Below, piece by piece: positions 2,057 through 13,190 of a stretch of DNA of 21,738 nucleotides. The position numbers and the translations under genes were made by a program. Under the pieces are notes generated by a model that was not told where the DNA came from, searched no databases, and saw only the letters and a list, made by a program, of their open reading frames with translations. The stretch lies in IMG/VR virus record IMGVR_UViG_3300042888_000922, positions 1 through 21,738 of that record. One strand, written 5' to 3'. This DNA comes from a virus. How positions within the stretch are numbered: position 1 is the stretch's first letter; the number at the start of each line of letters is the position of its first letter.

Positions 2057-4504
2057 TTATTTTTGTGAGATGATTTGTCGGTTTGTCACAGAGCCTGTAA
2101 CTTTTATAGACGTGATTTTAGGGGAACCGATTGTCCGTGTCAAGGTTAGCGTTCCCAGATAGCCTCTGATACCTCCAAGACGGAAGCGAATGTTGCCAGT
2201 CTCGTCCTCGTTGGTAGATCCTGTGCCAAGCACTACGCCATCAAGAAACATAGTTGTCGTTCCGATGCTCTGATTGTTGTCTGGATCTTCTGCTGCGAAG
2301 GAAATATCATACTCGCCTAGACCACCATCGACACATTGCATGGTGATTTGCCCATCTGTGAAGCGTTTACGGTCAAGATTGCCCAGCGCATAGCCTCTAG
2401 TTGTCAAAGATGACTGAATTGGGAAGTCGGTTACTTCGCCAGCAGACACTAAGCTATCGTTAGATATCTCTCTCACCTCTAATTCATGCACTCCACCCAG
2501 GGATGTCACGGCATAAATGCTGTTTCGCTCGGATGCGCTGCCAATAATTAGGTTTTTGATGATAAAATCACCAGCACCGAACGTATCTATAGACTCCCAT
2601 CCTTTGTTTAGGAAGTTAAAGATCAAGATCGTGTTGTTTCCAATAGCATCGTTAGCTCCTGCAATGGAATCTAAGGCTACAGCAAGGTAATATCGGTTAT
2701 TGAACAGAGTTCCAACCGCCTCAGCAGCTAGATTCTTGTTGATTCTGTCAATATACGGCTGGATGTTTTTAGAAATAGGCTCATCTGCACCGCGAAGGTT
2801 GTAGTCATTTAAGAACTCAACAGCATACACACCTTCATCCGAAAGGAAAAACATAGCATTGCCTTTCATAACAACGCTTTTCTTAGCTAAGCACCCAACT
2901 TCGTTAGTCAGCGCAGTCACACGGGTGTCATTTAAGCTCCCAGTAGTGCCGCTGATAAGGTGCAAGCTATTGCGATTAAGGACAACTAACTTGTCGTCGT
3001 AAAATCCCTGCATTGCCACAAGGTAATCTGCCGTGCCGCCAGTAATTCGGAACTGATTGGCAATCTGGTCAAACGTGTGGCTATCTAAAATGTCCGATAC
3101 AGCAATCTCGTCGGTGATATTTCTATCTGTGTAAACAGGTGCATTATACGTTCCGCTTGGAGCATAGTAAAATGGCACCCATAATCTACGTTGGAAGTAA
3201 ACACCCCATGGTGGAGCAGGTTGATGGATGAATCCTAGACCTTCGCTGAAGCGTCCACCGAACTCAACTTGCAATCCACCACCAAGGGTAGTTAAATTAC
3301 CCACAGGGGCGATAAAGGAGATATTGGTAGTGGTAGCACTAAGCACCTCGAAAGACTTGCCAGAAATAGCACTGAACTCAGGGACGGTAGTCTCGTAGAT
3401 AACAATGGTGTCTCCAGCTACAATCGTTGTATTCCCTGTAACTGTGAGGCTTACTACGCCACCAGATACTGACCCATTATTTCCAACAGTAGTAAATACC
3501 TGTGGTTGCGTGTATGTTCCTCCAGGAACAAGCGTGAACCCAGATTTCAACACAGCATCCGTAACCCCAAATGTTTCAGTTTGAGATGATGTGAATATGT
3601 AGGTAAACGTATCCTTGCTGGTAACAGAATCAACTGTAAATGTTCCATTCGCTGGAATATCAGGAGATACAGCTGTAAGCCCACTGACGACAATAGTGTC
3701 TCCAGCAGTTAACCCATGATCTCTTACACGCATGGTAACGTCGGTAGTTCCTGCCTGACTTGCACTCTCAATCTGACGACCATTAGGGAACCACTCAAAT
3801 CCTTGGAATCCACCACGGAACAGATACACACGATCAAACGCTTGTATCATCTCTGTGTCTCCCGTTAAGGACTGACCTTCTGGATATTCAATATCCTGTG
3901 TAGTATAGCCATCCAGATCCACCAAGATTGCCTTCGTGTCCAACGCCAGCACAATGCTCTCTGCATTCCCTGTGTTTGGATCACTGAACAAGCAAGACGC
4001 TCTGACGTTAACGTTGGCAGCATCGTTGATAGGTGTTCCTGATAAGGTTCCAGTTGTTGTGGTAATAGTAGTCAACCCAGGCACTGAATACGTCAACGTG
4101 TTTACGCTAGCAACGGTGAGTGCAAAGTCACCAACCATAGAGACATTACCAACAAGTCCAGCTACGCGAGCTAGTGCTGTTTCACCTAAAGCAAACCCGT
4201 GACCTGTAATCGTAATCGTAACCACGCCAGCAGTAACACTCGCAGCAGTAATGCTTTTAGCTGAATCAATCAGAAAAAACGGAATCGTAAGTGGACTACC
4301 ACCGCTTGTCAGAGAGCTTGTCCTAGCGACAACTCCCTTGCGAGGCTTCCAATATCCTTCCATCCTGCCGTTCAACGACTCACGCACCTCACCAACTTCT
4401 AGCTGGTTCAACTGCAATCGCTGATTCACACTCAGAAACCCACCATCCCCATCTGAGGATTGGGCTTCGTCCATCGCACTGCCACTCTGTGCAAACTGAC
4501 TCAT
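2057..4504 (-). CDS. Large tail protein, tail-nozzle (tubular B/stabilisation) type
   Basis: This is an 815-aa protein. The N-terminus (residues 23-60, FLSVNQRLQLNQLEVGEVRE then GYWKPRKG) resembles the opening of large phage tail proteins that list virion genes with a start-up 'NGR...RKG' segment. Three beta-rich domains of about 70 residues follow at roughly 86-156, 245-315 and 343-411, with TGHGF, RDHGL and TGNTT at equivalent places. The second half (VVLNRNSLHLISGT, GNAMFFLSDEGVYAV, NNRYYLAVAL, ILIFNFLNKGWES) reads as repeated beta blades, as in tail-nozzle proteins like T7 gp12. The start at 4504 overlaps the previous stop by one base (TAATG). Role assigned from fold-like patterns, not a proven homologue. 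Confidence 0.75.
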   Translation of the reverse strand: MSQFAQSGSAMDEAQSSDGDGGFLSVNQRLQLNQLEVGEVRESLNGRMEGYWKPRKGVVARTSSLTSGGSPLTIPFFLIDSAKSITAASVTAGVVTITITGHGFALGETALARVAGLVGNVSMVGDFALTVASVNTLTYSVPGLTTITTTTGTLSGTPINDAANVNVRASCLFSDPNTGNAESIVLALDTKAILVDLDGYTTQDIEYPEGQSLTGDTEMIQAFDRVYLFRGGFQGFEWFPNGRQIESASQAGTTDVTMRVRDHGLTAGDTIVVSGLTAVSPDIPANGTFTVDSVTSKDTFTYIFTSSQTETFGVTDAVLKSGFTLVPGGTYTQPQVFTTVGNNGSVSGGVVSLTVTGNTTIVAGDTIVIYETTVPEFSAISGKSFEVLSATTTNISFIAPVGNLTTLGGGLQVEFGGRFSEGLGFIHQPAPPWGVYFQRRLWVPFYYAPSGTYNAPVYTDRNITDEIAVSDILDSHTFDQIANQFRITGGTADYLVAMQGFYDDKLVVLNRNSLHLISGTTGSLNDTRVTALTNEVGCLAKKSVVMKGNAMFFLSDEGVYAVEFLNDYNLRGADEPISKNIQPYIDRINKNLAAEAVGTLFNNRYYLAVALDSIAGANDAIGNNTILIFNFLNKGWESIDTFGAGDFIIKNLIIGSASERNSIYAVTSLGGVHELEVREISNDSLVSAGEVTDFPIQSSLTTRGYALGNLDRKRFTDGQITMQCVDGGLGEYDISFAAEDPDNNQSIGTTTMFLDGVVLGTGSTNEDETGNIRFRLGGIRGYLGTLTLTRTIGSPKITSIKVTGSVTNRQIISQK

Positions 4505-4758
4505 TATGCGTAGTAAGCAATAACGGCTCCGCTAGTTAAGTTAATCGAACTAAATCTTCCACCAATGCCAATTCCAGCAGGAACTGTCACTCCAGAAATA
4601 TTGGAAAGATCATCAATGTTGCTACTGGTGATATCGTTAAACACTGCGTCTGTAATGACTTGAATCCAACGCCAATTACCATCAATCTGGCCTGTTGTTT
4701 CGTCAATGTATAAACCTCCACCTTGGCCTTGCATGTTATAATCTGCTGGATTCCCCAT
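4504..4758 (-). CDS. Small virion-cluster protein, 84 aa
   Basis: Starting from ATG at 4758 (MGNPADYNMQGQGG) this gives 84 aa. An upstream in-frame ATG at 4839 would add 27 residues, but those would span the 4798-4826 palindrome, so the shorter start is preferred. The C-terminus (GGRFSSINLTSGAVIAYYA) matches the ending style of small phage proteins found beside head and tail genes, in which a short beta-rich tail carries a 'FSSIxLxSG' segment. It is the first gene of this leftward cluster, facing away from the HNH gene. Function unknown; a minor virion or assembly part is likely. Confidence 0.65.
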   Translation of the reverse strand: MGNPADYNMQGQGGGLYIDETTGQIDGNWRWIQVITDAVFNDITSSNIDDLSNISGVTVPAGIGIGGRFSSINLTSGAVIAYYA

Positions 4759-4797
4759 AATTTTGTTGACTAAATGTTGATTTGAACTATAATAAAC

Positions 4798-4826
4798 CCG
4801 ATCCAACGAATGAGTCGAAGGATCGG
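4798..4826. promoter_or_regulatory. 29-bp imperfect palindrome between divergent genes
   Basis: CCGATCC (4798-4804) pairs with GGATCGG (4820-4826). Inside, CGA and TCG also pair, separated by AA on both sides and an ATGAG centre. It lies between the leftward virion cluster and the rightward HNH gene, next to a TATTAT-like -10 for the leftward genes (about 4786-4791). It could be an operator or a hairpin in the 5' leader of the virion mRNA. Confidence 0.45.
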
Positions 4827-4904
4827 AAACCTCAAACATGTATCAGCATGCAGGAAGCAAGTCAATTAGTATTTGAATTTAAGAAAAATGTCAACCTTTT
4901 TTTG

Positions 4905-5501
4905 GTGAGGCATAAAAGATGGGACACACGAGCCGATGGTAAAGTTTTTTGGCAGTATTCTCACGGCAAAGAACGGTGGATTACTTTAGACTCAGCAATT
5001 AGACAAAATGAGTCAATAAAAAAAGCTGCCAGCAAGCAAAGATTAAAAAACCCAGAAAAATGTTTATTGGCAAATAAACAATGGCGAGATAAGAATAAAG
5101 ATAAGCACTGCGAAAACGCTAGGAATTATTATCAAAAAAATAAAACACATGCCAATGAGGTTAAGCGCAAAAGACGAATGTATAGACGCTACTCAGATCC
5201 ATTGTATGCGTTTAACCAAGCAGTAAGATCTTTAATCTCACGAGCATTCAAAAATAAGAATTACAAAAAAACCTCACAAGCACGTGTTATTATCGGCTGT
5301 GACTGGGATGAACTAGCTAAGCATATTGAATCCAAATTCTCCGATGGCATGAACTGGGCTAATCGTGGGCAATGGCACATAGATCATATTATCCCATTAT
5401 CTTCAGCGCAAACCGCCGATGATGTTTTTCGGCTAAATCATTACACTAATCTCCAGCCCTTGTGGGCATTAGATAATTTGCAAAAGGGAGCAAAATACTA
5501 G
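4905..5501 (+). CDS. HNH endonuclease, probable free-standing homing type (copy 1)
   Basis: This encodes 198 aa from GTG at 4905 (VRHKRWDTRADGKVFWQY), chosen because it lines up with MRHKRGDKRIDGKLFWQY, the start of the paralogue at 16410. In-frame ATGs at 4848 and 4782 are alternatives. The middle is Lys-rich and helical (DNA-contacting). The C-terminal HNH core is WHIDHIIP followed by RLNHYTNLQPLW, with the expected His-Asp-His, Asn and Asn residues. Such genes cut DNA at specific sites and spread between phages. It stands alone, opposite in strand to the virion genes, and is A-rich compared with the early genes, in keeping with acquisition. Confidence 0.88.
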   Translation: MRHKRWDTRADGKVFWQYSHGKERWITLDSAIRQNESIKKAASKQRLKNPEKCLLANKQWRDKNKDKHCENARNYYQKNKTHANEVKRKRRMYRRYSDPLYAFNQAVRSLISRAFKNKNYKKTSQARVIIGCDWDELAKHIESKFSDGMNWANRGQWHIDHIIPLSSAQTADDVFRLNHYTNLQPLWALDNLQKGAKY

Positions 5502-5575
5502 CAGTGCCTCAACTGATTTATACGCCTTGTAAATCGTAGCTAATAGGGCTGCTCATGCGCGTGTTTTATCATTTT
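5500..5575 (+). terminator. Possible structured 3' end of the HNH gene
   Basis: The outer arms AGCAG (5500-5504) and CTGCT (5549-5553) pair, and an inner perfect 6-bp stem GATTTA (5515-5520)/TAAATC (5530-5535) lies within. A U-rich stretch (GTTTTATCATTTTG, 5561-5574) follows. It starts at the HNH stop codon. The stem is weaker than a classical terminator. Confidence 0.35.
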
Positions 5576-5597
5576 GTGGGGATTTGTCAAGTAGCCA

Positions 5598-5650
5598 TTT
5601 AGGCATTTTTTCGGAGGGTGAAGTTTCCCCTTTAGGCATTTTTTCGGAGG
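5598..5650. repeat. Perfect 20-bp direct repeat, 33-bp period
   Basis: TTTAGGCATTTTTTCGGAGG occurs at 5598-5617 and again at 5631-5650 with no mismatch. The 13 bp between them are GTGAAGTTTCCCC. The repeat is in the gene-free region before the tandem repeats. No function is known; a protein-binding site pair or recombination scar is possible. Confidence 0.8.
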
Positions 5651-5683
5651 CTAGGGAACCAATAGCTATATCCGTAGCCACCG

Positions 5684-5706
5684 CCCCCGCGACCCCCTCC
5701 CCCCCC
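5684..5706 (-). other. G-quadruplex-capable tract on the minus strand
   Basis: The plus strand has C runs of 5, 5 and 8 (5684-5688, 5693-5697, 5699-5706). The minus strand therefore has G8, G5 and G5 separated by 1-4 bases, enough for four G-triplets. It sits at the edge of the tandem-repeat block, which suits a replication or transcription pause site. Confidence 0.5.
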
Positions 5707-5715
5707 TGTTCATCC

Positions 5716-5810
5716 GCACACTACTCACCCGCACACCACACTGTTCATCCGAACACTACTCACCTGAACAGCACTCATGTGCACACCACTCATGCGAACA
5801 CCAAACAAAT
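5716..5810. repeat. Tandem 15-bp repeats (about six units)
   Basis: Units begin with GCACAC or GAACA(C/G) and continue to ACTCA: 5716, 5731 (a 20-bp variant), 5751, 5766, 5781 and 5796 (last one diverged). An example is GAACACTACTCACCT. The strand is strongly C/A rich, unlike the genes around it. They lie between the divergent leftward and rightward gene blocks, next to the 26-bp repeats. Iterons of a replication origin are the likeliest reading; a protein-coding role is doubtful. Confidence 0.75.
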
Positions 5811-5812
5811 CA

Positions 5813-6092
5813 AACGTTCGCTTGAATCACCCGCTTGCATCGCCTGGCACGACAGCACCGGCACGACAGCACGACAGCGCCGGCACGCTCTCATCGCCTG
5901 ACATATCGCCTCGAGATAGCACCGGCACAATAGCGCCGTCCACACGTCCGAACCTGCACCGCTCACGCATCCAACGATCGCTTGAATCACTCGCTTACTT
6001 GCCAGCACGCCCGCATGAAACGTACGTATGAAACACCCGCTCGAACGGCTCGAGATCACCACGTGAAACGCTCGTTTTAATCACTCGCTTGC
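5813..6092. repeat. Four dispersed imperfect 26-bp repeats
   Basis: Copies lie at 5813-5838, 5973-5998, 6019-6044 (most diverged) and 6067-6092. Shared features are an AACG start, a TTGAATCAC-like centre and a CGCTT-like end. The starts are 160, 46 and 48 bp apart. Between the first two is a second short repeat, GGCACGACAGC (5846 and 5860, with a partial third copy at 5870). No convincing gene spans this block. It probably binds a phage protein, such as a replication initiator or regulator. Confidence 0.7.
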
Positions 6093-6134
6093 TTGTCCTG
6101 GTATCGCATCAAATCTAACAAGAAAATTATTTAC

Positions 6135-6164
6135 TTGACATGTTTTAGAAATGCTGTGTAAACT
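6135..6164 (+). promoter_or_regulatory. Probable rightward early promoter
   Basis: A perfect -35 TTGACA (6135-6140) is followed after 18 bp by TAAACT (6159-6164), with TGTG just before the -10. The start would be near 6171, just upstream of two GTTGATAA boxes at 6181 and 6196. It would drive the rightward early genes with a leader of about 360 nt. Confidence 0.6.
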
Positions 6165-6180
6165 TGAACAGGAAACAACG

Positions 6181-6205
6181 GTTGATAATGCTTGGGTTGA
6201 TAACG
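6181..6205. promoter_or_regulatory. Paired GTTGATAA boxes (operator candidates)
   Basis: GTTGATAATG (6181-6190) and GTTGATAACG (6196-6205) are direct repeats 15 bp apart, about 10 bp downstream of the predicted start of the early promoter. A third copy forms a palindrome at 6396-6408. Shared boxes at two opposed promoters suggest one regulator controls both. Confidence 0.5.
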
Positions 6206-6230
6206 TCTCATGCCTGGTGATTAAATCCGA

Positions 6231-6359
6231 TTATTGGTGATATTCTTTTAGGAGAGCGAATAGATTTTCTGAGATGCTTTCCCCGATGCTTTCCCCTCGC
6301 TGATTCTCTGCCAGATCATCCCTGAAATTGATGCTTTGTTCCTCGCTTTCCTTGCTCAT
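6231..6359 (-). CDS. Possible small acidic protein, 42 aa
   Basis: ATG at 6359 gives MSKESEEQSINFRDDLAENQ, then a Glu-rich helical tail ending LLKEYHQ. It has its own leftward promoter candidate, with -10 TAAGAT (6379-6384) and -35 TTGATT overlapping a palindrome. No Shine-Dalgarno sequence is seen. It lies opposite to the early transcript, in the position where phages often place a small regulator, but no DNA-binding motif is visible. A longer reading from 6503 would run through the promoter and is less likely. Confidence 0.35.
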   Translation of the reverse strand: MSKESEEQSINFRDDLAENQRGESIGESISENLFALLKEYHQ

Positions 6360-6378
6360 TCTGTGCAATGCTGAAAAA

Positions 6379-6408
6379 ATCTTATGCAATAAAGCGTTGA
6401 TAATCAAC
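6379..6408 (-). promoter_or_regulatory. Leftward promoter overlapping a palindromic operator
   Basis: On the minus strand TTGATT (6407-6402) and TAAGAT (6384-6379) are 17 bp apart. The -35 lies inside GTTGATAATCAAC (6396-6408), an inverted repeat with the same GTTGATAA box found at 6181 and 6196. Binding there would block this promoter. Confidence 0.45.
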
Positions 6409-6532
6409 AAAAAACAAGAAAAGCGAAAATATTTGTTAAAATGTTGTGGACATTGTGAGCAAATCCGATATCTTTCGCCTGTCGCCGCGATTGGCGATCG
6501 CAACTAGTCAAACCTTGAATATATACTCGAAA

Positions 6533-7243
6533 ATGAAAAATAACACTTACATCCTGCATGAAGGAACAAAAAACGGTCAGCGCTATTTCGTTGCAGCATC
6601 TGGTTTCACCCGTGAATCGCAAAACCGTAAGACGGGGGATATGATCCAAATTTGGATCATGCTCACTGACGTCAACCCTGTCGCTGCAGTGCAATCCGGT
6701 TTAGATGCCGTGACGATTTGCGAGGGTTGCCCCTTTGCCTCTGGTAACGGCTGCTACGTTAATGTTGGACAATCTCCTTTGGCCATCTGGAAATCATACC
6801 ACAGCGGAAATATGCCCAAGCTCATGCCTAAAGACTACGTAAAAGCATTTAAGGGTGAGAAGGTACGCTTCGGAGCATATGGCAACCCGACTTTAATTCC
6901 CCTTTCCATGGTGAAAGCAATTGCTAAGGTTAGCGCAGGATGGACAGGATATTTCCACAACTGGAAAACCATGCCTGCTGCCAAACGTAACGCTTACAAT
7001 CAATTCTTCATGGTCAGCACAGAAACAGCCTCGAGCCTCGAGCTTGCTAATTCTTTGCAATTGCGAGTATTCCACGTCTCACCCGTACAACCTGCTAACA
7101 CTGTGGAGTGTCTCGCTGATTCTCGAGGGCTGACATGCGCGCAATGCCAACTATGCCAAGGTTGGAGCAAACCAGCTAAAAGCGTATGGATTAATCCGCA
7201 TGGCAGTAAAACAGCCAAGGCATCTGCAGCAGCTATGGCATAA
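6533..7243 (+). CDS. Cys-motif phage protein of unknown function, 236 aa
   Basis: The start MKNNTYILHEGTKNGQRYF (ATG 6533) is preferred over ATG 6446 because relatives I recall from phages and plasmids begin with a similar 'ILHxG...YVAASG' segment. Visible blocks are CEGCPFASGNGCYVNVGQ, then VRFGAYGNP (about residue 110), WTGYFHNWK, FMVSTETA and a second Cys set CLADSRGLTCAQCQLC. Two Cys clusters suggest metal or Fe-S binding. The function of this family is unknown to me. It is the first gene of the rightward early block, with no Shine-Dalgarno sequence. Its stop is directly followed by the first hammerhead ribozyme; the last coding bases (TGGCA, 7236-7240) may pair into the ribozyme's outer stem. 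Confidence 0.85.
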   Translation: MKNNTYILHEGTKNGQRYFVAASGFTRESQNRKTGDMIQIWIMLTDVNPVAAVQSGLDAVTICEGCPFASGNGCYVNVGQSPLAIWKSYHSGNMPKLMPKDYVKAFKGEKVRFGAYGNPTLIPLSMVKAIAKVSAGWTGYFHNWKTMPAAKRNAYNQFFMVSTETASSLELANSLQLRVFHVSPVQPANTVECLADSRGLTCAQCQLCQGWSKPAKSVWINPHGSKTAKASAAAMA

Positions 7244-7252
7244 CTCACGCAA

Positions 7253-7303
7253 GCCACTGATGATTCTCTGGCAAGAGATGAAACGCCCTACGGGGCGTAT
7301 GGC
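7253..7303 (+). ncRNA. Type I hammerhead self-cleaving ribozyme, copy 1
   Basis: All parts of a hammerhead are present in order. Stem I 5' arm GCCA (7253-7256); core CTGATGA (7257-7263); stem II of 5 bp closed by a GGCA loop (7265-7278), with a T/T mismatch at its base (7264/7279); core GAAA (7280-7283); stem III CGCCC/GGGCG with a TACG loop (7284-7297); T7298 and cleavage base A7299; stem I 3' arm TGGC (7300-7303). A7283 pairs with T7298 as the family requires. Stem I is open to the flanks, so type I. An outer helix TGGCA (7236-7240)/TGCCA (7306-7310) could extend stem I. Predicted cut is 3' of A7299, leaving 19 nt before the next ATG. The lower mismatch may reduce activity. Confidence 0.88.
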
Positions 7304-7318
7304 AATGCCACACACAAC

Positions 7319-7525
7319 ATGAAAACCACCACACAGAAAGAAATACGCGCTCTTTTTTGGGCATCTCATCCCACGCTTGAAAATCACGCTCGCAAGTGGG
7401 GAATCAAGTCAGCTCCACACAATCGGCATAACACCGACACGCGCATAGCGTTCTGTGACTATGTCGACAGCCTAGCCAAGTCTGGCGTGATCTCAGAAAA
7501 ACTAGCATCAAGAGCCACCTTGTAA
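7319..7525 (+). CDS. Small conserved phage protein, 68 aa
   Basis: The sequence MKTTTQKEIRALFWASHPTL, then NTDTRIAFCDYVDSLAKSGVISEKLASRATL, resembles a small family I recall from many phages, where 'NDYxTDTRxAFVDFVDxLxRxGxIS' is conserved. Its function is not known. It is mostly helical with no membrane segment or metal motif. The ATG lies 19 nt after the predicted cleavage site of the first ribozyme, so after self-cleavage the mRNA would begin with a 19-nt leader and a 5'-OH. No Shine-Dalgarno sequence is visible. Confidence 0.8.
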   Translation: MKTTTQKEIRALFWASHPTLENHARKWGIKSAPHNRHNTDTRIAFCDYVDSLAKSGVISEKLASRATL

Positions 7526-7556
7526 CCCACAGAACCCGTACACAGCACAAACTACT

Positions 7557-7703
7557 ATGCACCCCACTTGCTCACTTATCCGCCGTCCCATCATCCGCCG
7601 TAAACCATGGCGGAAATGGCTCACTATCACCGCTGAAATCATCGGGGGCATTCTCACGATTGCCTTGCTTGTGACACTCACTATCCTATGCTTAGCACTA
7701 TGA
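7557..7703 (+). CDS. Small single-pass membrane protein, 48 aa
   Basis: MHPTCSLIRRPIIRRKPWRK gives a strongly basic N-terminus, followed by a hydrophobic stretch of about 22 residues (ITAEIIGGILTIALLVTLTI) and a short CLAL end. By the positive-inside rule the N-terminus stays in the cytoplasm. It overlaps the next gene in an ATGA junction (7700-7703), which supports real translation. It sits between the two ribozymes. It could be a small inhibitor or membrane-anchoring peptide; no known family. Confidence 0.55.
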   Translation: MHPTCSLIRRPIIRRKPWRKWLTITAEIIGGILTIALLVTLTILCLAL

Positions 7704-7792
7704 AAGAGTATTTTTGCTATAAATGCTATGCGAAAATCGGCAACGGCACAATTTGCTATTGGTGTAAGAAAAAATATACATTTAAGCTGTAA
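7700..7792 (+). CDS. Zinc-ribbon-like microprotein, 30 aa
   Basis: The frame reads MKEYFCYKCYAKIGNGTICY then WCKKKYTFKL. The two pairs CYKC and CYWC, ten residues apart, form a minimal zinc-ribbon (treble-clef-like) pattern in a Lys/Tyr-rich peptide. The start overlaps the stop of the membrane protein in an ATGA junction. The stop lies 16 bp before stem I of the second ribozyme, just as the 236-aa gene ends 9 bp before the first. A nucleic-acid or protein-binding role is inferred only from the Cys pattern. Confidence 0.55.
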   Translation: MKEYFCYKCYAKIGNGTICYWCKKKYTFKL

Positions 7793-7808
7793 GAAATCAC
7801 GCAAACAA

Positions 7809-7859
7809 GCCACTGACGAATCTCTGGCAAGAGATGAAACACCCTGCGGGGTGTATGGC
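7809..7859 (+). ncRNA. Type I hammerhead self-cleaving ribozyme, copy 2
   Basis: The layout is as in copy 1: GCCA (7809-7812); core CTGACGA (7813-7819), where the variable seventh core base is C instead of T; stem II of 6 bp with GGCA loop and an A-T base (7820-7835); core GAAA (7836-7839); stem III CACCC/GGGTG with a TGCG loop (7840-7853); A7839 pairs T7854; cleavage base A7855; stem I 3' arm TGGC (7856-7859). Compared with copy 1, one stem III pair changed from G-C to A-T on both sides, and the loop stayed UNCG. Predicted cut 3' of A7855 leaves 20 nt before the ATG at 7876. This copy has a fully paired stem II and should be the stronger ribozyme. Confidence 0.9.
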
Positions 7860-7875
7860 ACATGCCAATTAAACT

Positions 7876-8118
7876 ATGATACTATACCAAAAAACAGAAG
7901 ATCCCCTCGTAATCGTAACCGACAGCAAGACAAAAGACGTTCAAACGAAAAAGCTTACTGGCACTTATTTTCGAATCATTCCCCCTGCAAATGATCGCGT
8001 AAATTGGGTGTTAACCTGCTCAGAAATGCACGTTGACCGATGGGCATCGGCTACAGATTCAACAATGATCATTTCTGAGAACCTAAGAAAACAACTAGTC
8101 TCTTTATTCTCATGCTGA
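7876..8118 (+). CDS. Hypothetical protein, 80 aa
   Basis: MILYQKTEDPLVIVTDSKTK opens a mixed protein of alternating strands and one helix with three aromatic-rich segments (TYFRIIPPAND, VNWVLTCSEMHVDRW) and a C-terminal NLRKQLVSLF. No family is recognised. It starts 16 bp after the second ribozyme and overlaps the start of the DnaA-like gene by 7 bp, so it would be the first gene on the RNA downstream of the cut. Confidence 0.65.
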   Translation: MILYQKTEDPLVIVTDSKTKDVQTKKLTGTYFRIIPPANDRVNWVLTCSEMHVDRWASATDSTMIISENLRKQLVSLFSC

Positions 8119-12077: not shown

Positions 12078-13037
12078 ATGACAGAACAACTCACGCTAGA
12101 TGATACGCTTTTCCCTCCAAGGAAAGAGCTTGCAAAATTCGTTTATCCTCCAGAACGCTACCCATTGCGCGAAAAAATCAGCATTAGCTTTTCAGGTGGG
12201 GCAACCAGCGGCTACATGCTTAAAATGCTACTGGATCATTTTAGAGAAAATGAACCTGATCGTGAAATTATAGTGACCTTTTGCAATACTGGGCTAGAGC
12301 ATGAGAAAACTCTGGAGTTTGTTGATAAGTGCGACAAAGCATGGAATGTCGGTGTCGTGTGGTTAGAGGCAGTGGTAACGCATGGCGACAAGATAGGAAT
12401 TCGCCATAAGATTGTTGATTTTGAAACAGCGTCACGCAATGGCGAGCCTTATGAGGAAGCGGTCAAGAAATACGGGGTATTTAACAAATCATACCCAAAC
12501 TGCAACGGTCGATTAAAGACCGAGGTAATGCAAGATTACCACAGAAGTATTGGATGGCGATCATTGTATTCTTCAGCCGTGGGAATTAGAGCGGATGAGA
12601 TTGACAGAATATCTCTTAACGCCATGCATCAAGGCATCTTCTACCCATGCGCTGACGCTGGAGTCACAAAGCGAGATGTGCGCGCATGGTGGCTCACTCA
12701 GTCATTCAGACTAGAGATACCAGAGCATTATGGGAATTGTGTAACATGTTGGAAAAAGAGCGACCGCAAGCTTTTGACCATTGCTAGGCACGATCCTGAC
12801 AGCTTTAATTTCTTTCATCGGTTAGAGTCGATATACGGATTTGCAGGAGGAGAAAGACGAGATAGAAAAGAAAAAGAGAGACGAGTTTTCTTTCGTAAAA
12901 ATAGAACAGCACAAGATATTTTGGATTTATCTCGCCAACCATTTGATGAGTTTGTTGACGGCAAATTTATTCCGTTCGATGATGATCTGGACATGGGGTC
13001 TGGCTGCGGCGAATCGTGCGAGATAGGCGCAGACTGA
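12078..13037 (+). CDS. PAPS-reductase-like PP-loop protein
   Basis: This is a 319-aa protein of the adenine-nucleotide alpha-hydrolase (PAPS reductase/DndC-like) superfamily. The PP-loop SFSGGATSGYM is at residues 37-47, followed by TFCNTGLEHEKTLEFV (about 67-83) and GIRADE (169-174). Cys142, Cys191, Cys221 and Cys224 (in NCVTCWKK) could hold an Fe-S cluster, as in DndC and related enzymes. Phages carry many such genes; proposed jobs are sulfur chemistry on nucleic acid or ATP pyrophosphatase reactions, and which one applies cannot be told here. No Dnd or other partner genes are near. The C-terminus GSGCGESCEIGAD is an extra Cys-rich tip. Confidence 0.85.
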   Translation: MTEQLTLDDTLFPPRKELAKFVYPPERYPLREKISISFSGGATSGYMLKMLLDHFRENEPDREIIVTFCNTGLEHEKTLEFVDKCDKAWNVGVVWLEAVVTHGDKIGIRHKIVDFETASRNGEPYEEAVKKYGVFNKSYPNCNGRLKTEVMQDYHRSIGWRSLYSSAVGIRADEIDRISLNAMHQGIFYPCADAGVTKRDVRAWWLTQSFRLEIPEHYGNCVTCWKKSDRKLLTIARHDPDSFNFFHRLESIYGFAGGERRDRKEKERRVFFRKNRTAQDILDLSRQPFDEFVDGKFIPFDDDLDMGSGCGESCEIGAD

Positions 13038-13060: not shown

Positions 13061-13190
13061 TGGTAAAGCGATTTATGAAAAAATATCCCCCAAGTGTGCA
13101 TCGTTGAGAGGCATGAGGGATCTGCTGCGAGAATAGTATCAGAGAATCGGGTAAATTCAAGCTCAGATATCGAGCATGATCGGTATCATC

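Follow-up and report, generated by a model that had tools for sequence, protein, structure and literature searches.

The window analysed here, a virus record of 21.7 kb taken over its whole length, harbors two type I hammerhead elements on the plus strand, each positioned between two genes. Copy 1 (7253–7303, +) follows a phrog_2554, DUF7227-like gene (6446–7243, +), the true start of which may be internal to the open reading frame (ORF), and precedes a gene for a 68-aa protein (7319–7525, +) with the leader CACACAAC and no Shine-Dalgarno sequence. Between the two ribozymes lie ORFs of 48 aa (7557–7703, +) and 30 aa (7700–7792, +), the second of which overlaps the preceding stop codon (ATGA) and encodes, directly upstream of copy 2, a product with two CxxC pairs (MKEYFCYKCYAKIGNGTICYWCKKKYTFKL). 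Copy 2 (7809–7859, +) is followed by a gene for an 80-aa protein of no known family (7876–8118, +), which in relatives is always preceded by a hammerhead. The neighbourhood encodes an Erf-like annealing protein, exonuclease VIII, a DnaC-like loader, endonuclease VII-like proteins and a methyltransferase, in agreement with the original prediction of type I hammerheads in an early (recombination/replication) operon of a phage. Shine-Dalgarno-like motifs were detected at 3 of the 36 ORF starts inspected, start codons within the tail behind the ribozyme (GGCAATGCC) were judged less likely than the in-frame ATGs shortly downstream, and no promoter-like or terminator-like excess was found around the window copies.

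Two further observations concern other parts of the window. A PAPS-reductase-like gene at 12078–13037 (+) also matches PADLOC SspD (1e-7) and is possibly tied to DNA phosphorothioation or its evasion. In addition, an abiF RNA (RF03085) at 13085–13120 (−) scored 36.1, just under the gathering threshold of 37, and five relatives carry abiF RNAs above gathering: L024 (10510–10546, −), L009 (7273–7308, +), L047 (7158–7194, −), L029 (11819–11855, −) and L026 (9750–9785, −). The RNA is conserved in this clade; as no Abi_2 (PF07751) gene was found in seven records, it may represent an orphan RNA with which the phages mimic or neutralise the AbiF system of a host.

Reading of the sequence located every predicted hammerhead part in both copies, including the core CUGANGA ... 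GAAA with its conserved positions. Copy 1 consists of GCCA (7253–7256), CTGATGA (7257–7263), stem II (7264–7279), GAA (7280–7282), stem III (A7283–T7298), A7299 and TGGC (7300–7303), and copy 2 of GCCA (7809–7812), CTGACGA (7813–7819), stem II (7820–7835), GAA (7836–7838), stem III (7839–7854), A7855 and TGGC (7856–7859), so that the two share an identical stem I, GCCA/TGGC. By hammerhead homology, cleavage is predicted after A17, i.e. between 7299 and 7300 in copy 1 (A7299) and between 7855 and 7856 in copy 2 (A7855). Both copies are located between a stop codon and the next ATG, as had been proposed: the stop at 7241–7243 and the ATG at 7319 enclose copy 1, the TAA at 7790–7792 and the ATG at 7876 enclose copy 2, with spacers of 9 and 16 nt from stop to element.

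Stem II, which had been assigned to both copies, is complete in copy 2 with an A-U pair at 10.1-11.1, but is interrupted in copy 1, where U7264 and U7279 form an unpaired U-U at this position. The same U-U mismatch occurs in one relative and U-C in others, while 10.1-11.1 is paired in 41 of 45 distinct elements. Perreault et al. (2011) discarded candidates with a 10.1-11.1 mismatch unless activity was shown (PMC3088659), a filter that would apply to copy 1 but not to copy 2; pairing at 10.1-11.1 is a published filter and not a strict defining feature. From its sequence, copy 1 is a hammerhead member by homology with doubtful activity, which may cleave more slowly owing to the U-U mismatch, while copy 2 should be fully active.

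A covariance model (R2) based on 15 elements taken from other phages, and thus free of window sequences, recovered copy 2 (7809–7867) with 63.9 bits (E 2.9e-13) and copy 1 (7253–7310) with 56.1 bits (E 1.8e-11), the next-best score within the window being 10.4 bits (E 0.67), and these values exclude chance, in line with the earlier view that a chance origin of two full sets is very unlikely. Another model, R1, recognised the published hammerheads of phage PaP3. A match to the Rfam type I model, by which the assignment was to be checked, did not materialise: the Rfam 15 scan of the window listed no Hammerhead_1 match for either copy, giving for copy 1 only a sub-threshold type III hammerhead (24.2 bits, gathering 48.5, E 0.34) and for copy 2 no hammerhead match at all. 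As clear relatives likewise fall below the Rfam gathering thresholds, this failure reflects a limit of the Rfam models and not of the structure, and since standard Rfam searches miss it, the compact type I class is probably under-counted.

The structure is backed by covariation in stems I, II and III. Counting pairs outward from the conserved core anchors, without an alignment, in 45 distinct elements, we found 10.2-11.2 paired in 44 (shuffle mean 19.4) and 15.3-16.3 paired in all 45 (shuffle mean 19.0), although the shuffle probabilities overstate independence, as the sequences of the clade are related. The A15.1-U16.1 pair is A-U in 45/45, cleavage position 17 is A or C (H, not G), and stem I shows compensation from GCCA/UGGC to GCCG/CGGC (A-U to G-C) in two elements. 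Covariation also supports the type I topology, in which stem I is open-ended and stems II and III are closed by loops. Two wider scans, which constrained the core, the tail and the 3′ side of stem I and left the 5′ side of stem I, stem II and stem III free, separated into 54 distinct elements with 6–8 of the 8 inner pairs of stems II and III, all of them (54/54) with a 4/4 stem I, and 70 background matches with 1–5 pairs, stem I being fully paired in five. Short intergenic inverted repeats frequently serve as binding sites or terminators, and the elements might accordingly be DNA sites or protein-binding hairpins instead of RNA devices. We give this explanation hardly any credence, as the invariant residues are the single-stranded ones of the core, G-U pairs are tolerated, the elements are strand-specific and have no T-run, and the fit to the hammerhead model reaches E 1e-13.

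An exact pattern with stems II and III left free retrieved 24 stretches from IMG/VR, and further loci were fetched by protein, six with the upstream and 22 with the downstream protein. All 22 loci fetched by the 80-aa protein alone carry a hammerhead whose GCC ends 9–12 nt before the ATG; across these loci, stem II, stem III and the base at the cleavage site (N17) occur in 13 distinct combinations. This 22/22 count and the unconstrained scans are stronger evidence than the shuffle probabilities. The gene family downstream of copy 1 occurs in L005, L007, L029, L004 and L056, with an element ahead of each. A BLASTN comparison of the window region with the phage collection gave no match, and four hammerhead-pattern matches in GTDB were rejected as candidates, since they score at most 18.7 bits with the model, look like chance and offer no clue to a host.

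Among 53 distinct elements whose neighbours were examined, 50 have an upstream ORF of at least 55 codons. In half of these (25 of 50, with 12 upstream families), the upstream gene terminates on the very UGA contained in the core CUGA, and in eleven elements, from 8 families, its stop directly abuts stem I. Because the junction proteins span 26 upstream and 23 downstream families, the ribozyme is a portable junction and not part of one gene, and identical elements were found at different gene pairs. Records of the clade hold one to five copies, with a ribozyme at only some gene boundaries; as the IMG/VR records are fragments, the copies per genome are minimum values. In L006, L015, L016, L029 and L047, the leaders behind the tail consist of CAACA/ACACA repeats before the ATG without a Shine-Dalgarno sequence, which look as if they were kept unstructured for initiation. 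A degenerate hammerhead on the opposite strand of L057 (2033–2086, −) has lost most of the CUGANGA core and has kept stems II and III and the tail.

Beyond stem I, each window copy has a 3′ tail, UGCCA, at 7306–7310 (+) in copy 1 and 7863–7867 (+) in copy 2, which can pair with loop II: GGCA 7270–7273 (+) with UGCC 7306–7309, and GGCA 7826–7829 (+) with UGCC 7863–7866. This potential contact, the U-U of copy 1, the overlap of stop codons in relatives and the 2011 publication of clustered hammerheads are absent from the original prediction. All 44 parsed elements combine a loop II GGC with a GCC 3–6 nt past stem I, and of the 54 elements in which the search left loop II unconstrained, 53 have GGC there. 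Covariation of the flanking bases is weak (25/44 paired vs 23.0 shuffled, P 0.048) and includes GGCU/AGCC and GGCG/CGCC. The presence and absence of GGC and GCC are in better agreement: L012 and L031 have loops without GGC and tails without GCC, and among the ten elements of L165, a distant phage described below, a GCC tail accompanies 3/3 GGC loops vs 1/7 others (4/120 by hand, P 0.03). A pseudoknot of this type has been reported for ~40% of hammerheads (Perreault et al. 2011, PMC3088659).

Alternatively, the tail can pair with the UGGC of stem I (7300–7303 in copy 1), so that the downstream product would start with a hairpin. In nearest-neighbour folding, which contains no tertiary terms, this hairpin is about as stable as stem I and is preferred over it in 28/45 elements; for both window copies, stem I is absent from the minimum-energy fold (ViennaRNA; pseudoknots are outside its model). 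Since stem I is lost in the predicted folds, cleavage may depend on folding during transcription. A tail that serves the hairpin only is disfavoured, because it leaves the loss of the tail GCC where loop II has no GGC (L012/L031, most of L165) unexplained. Thus, the sequences favour a pseudoknot before cleavage, with the hairpin as a possible state after it.

The position of the stops and the competing hairpin raise the question of regulation. The ribozyme could be blocked by a ribosome that terminates on the UGA of the core or by a tail hairpin that sequesters UGGC, and the amount cut would then be set by translation of the upstream gene or by transcription speed. The stop within the core in 25/50 elements from 12 upstream families, the abutting stops in 8 families and a tail hairpin that rivals stem I in energy would fit such regulated cutting, which we nevertheless regard as unlikely: in the window, 9 and 16 nt separate the stops from the elements, and the overlap may merely reflect compact genomes. 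Hammerheads, moreover, refold fast once the ribosome has left.

A second consideration arises from the pairing of the two copies. Sharing the same stem I, they could free a defined 556-nt RNA (7300–7855) as the actual product, e.g. a circular one after ligation of the 5′-OH and the cyclic phosphate, as its ends could re-pair and would be ligatable. However, the segment holds ordinary small ORFs, its spacing and content vary among relatives, and the window proteins that were scanned include no recognisable ligase. Perreault et al. sought spliced or circular products and found none (PMC3088659), and we consider release of such an RNA improbable.

Tandem hammerheads are not restricted to this clade. 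The record L165 (positions 22500–32500 of L164), part of a 62-kb record from a distant GC-rich, uncultured and unclassified phage, contains ten type I copies at 2307–7040 (−), i.e. within 4.7 kb, most of them between a stop codon and a Shine-Dalgarno sequence with ATG. Stem I differs among the ten copies through compensatory changes, and two loop classes are discernible, one with a GGC loop and GCC tail and one comprising several loops that start with UG and have a CUA-type tail. Cultured phages came up when two consensus elements were used as BLASTN queries. A single type I copy is present in Pseudomonas phage BroderSalsa, and the early regions of Streptomyces phages R4 (L168; recorded host S. 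coelicolor A3(2)) and Salutena (L169) carry nine and twelve type II hammerheads, respectively, on the minus strand, nearly all at or above Rfam gathering. These type II copies fall into gaps of the annotation or overlap annotated ORFs that are small or probably extended too far, and three annotated R4 genes coincide with ribozymes (gp60.1, gp67.1 and gp75.1) and are probably not genes. The Streptomyces-phage elements were rejected as relatives by descent, as the BLASTN link runs via stem similarity and they are type II by topology. That different topologies occupy the same place in unrelated phages argues for a common role.

It could be objected that the elements are inactive or selfish remnants, spread by recombination between phages and with no role in expression. 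Identical elements at different gene pairs, the 10.1-11.1 mismatch in copy 1 and a few relatives, and the opposite-strand L057 copy without most of its core are what one would expect of such remnants. Yet nearly all copies have an invariant core and covarying stems, the real copies occupy the coding strand and lie between a stop and a start codon, the element is retained before one gene in 22/22 loci despite divergence, and type I and type II are used convergently in unrelated phages, which makes this origin highly improbable.

Core, stems, covariation, conservation, stop-start position, strand and recurrence are read directly from the sequences. Together with the context in many phages, from which we infer the mRNA processing that had been put forward as a use of the elements, they make it likely, in our assessment, that the hammerheads constitutively cut a polycistronic early mRNA between genes, independently of host RNases, and release the genes as separate messages. 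Each element would act co-transcriptionally as a type I hammerhead that cuts between two genes. The upstream mRNA would end in a 2′,3′-cyclic phosphate right behind the stem III hairpin, and the downstream mRNA would begin with a 5′-OH end, a tail able to form the UGGC/GCCA hairpin and a short stretch (about 8–40 nt) of unstructured leader ahead of the AUG. Before cleavage, the UGCC of the tail is probably paired with the GGCA of loop II, a tertiary contact that would speed the reaction; after cleavage, it may re-pair with UGGC and thereby aid product release. The likeliest benefit would be that an early operon gives rise to several messages, each with its own stability, its own translation and fixed, probably protected ends, by cuts that depend neither on host RNases nor on whichever upstream gene was shuffled in.

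Tentatively, one could go further and suppose that ribozyme punctuation of early operons is a strategy of phages in general, at which they arrived independently by way of type I and of type II hammerheads. Almost any boundary between early genes could then consist of a stop codon joined to a ribozyme, which would yield monocistronic mRNAs independently of host RNases, with cutting coupled to translation termination; we regard so wide a reading as possible and rather doubtful. The family provides a strong functional hypothesis with a fixed geometry and many natural variants to compare, and Streptomyces phage R4 offers a cultured system with nine predicted ribozymes of one operon.

Cutting of an early transcript between genes has a counterpart in phage T7, where a polycistronic early mRNA is cut between genes by RNase III to give stable messages. 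The likeness lies in the cutting of an early transcript between genes; T7 relies on a host enzyme, whereas RNA catalysis in cis is predicted for the window. The closest precedents are the hammerheads that Perreault et al. (2011) found clustered round prophage genes of A. tumefaciens, A. caulinodans and C. scindens and in phage PaP3, with cleavage of tandem prophage hammerheads shown in vitro and in E. coli and processing of long phage transcripts already proposed (PMC3088659). The window elements are new members, in an uncultured clade, of this kind of hammerhead. They share the core, the intergenic position in phage or prophage operons, the occurrence of several copies per operon and, putatively, a pseudoknot linking loop II to the strand that adjoins stem I, a contact reported there for all three types (PMC3088659). 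Unlike the published clusters, the window clade is separate (no BLASTN match), has a 4-bp GCC/GGC stem I and often places the upstream stop inside the core, and the tandem sets tested there were small, compared with up to ten to twelve copies here (PMC3088659). A 2017 review still counted the role of bacterial and phage hammerheads among the open questions (PMC6155905). In a partial search of the literature, covering articles without supplements, we found no report of the strict junction design, of arrays of nine to twelve or of type II punctuation in R4 and Salutena. The type II elements of these two phages (Rfam RF02276) resemble those of the window in being intergenic, on the coding strand and in punctuating an early operon, and differ in being circularly permuted and recognised by Rfam. 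A further parallel is the RiboJ insulator, which combines the sTRSV hammerhead with a 3′ hairpin and in which the cut likewise puts a hairpin at the newly formed 5′ end, upstream of the ribosome binding region, although it is engineered, of type III and equipped with a 23-nt hairpin (PMC6206723). In contrast, the window elements are natural, and their tail also fits the role of a pseudoknot partner.
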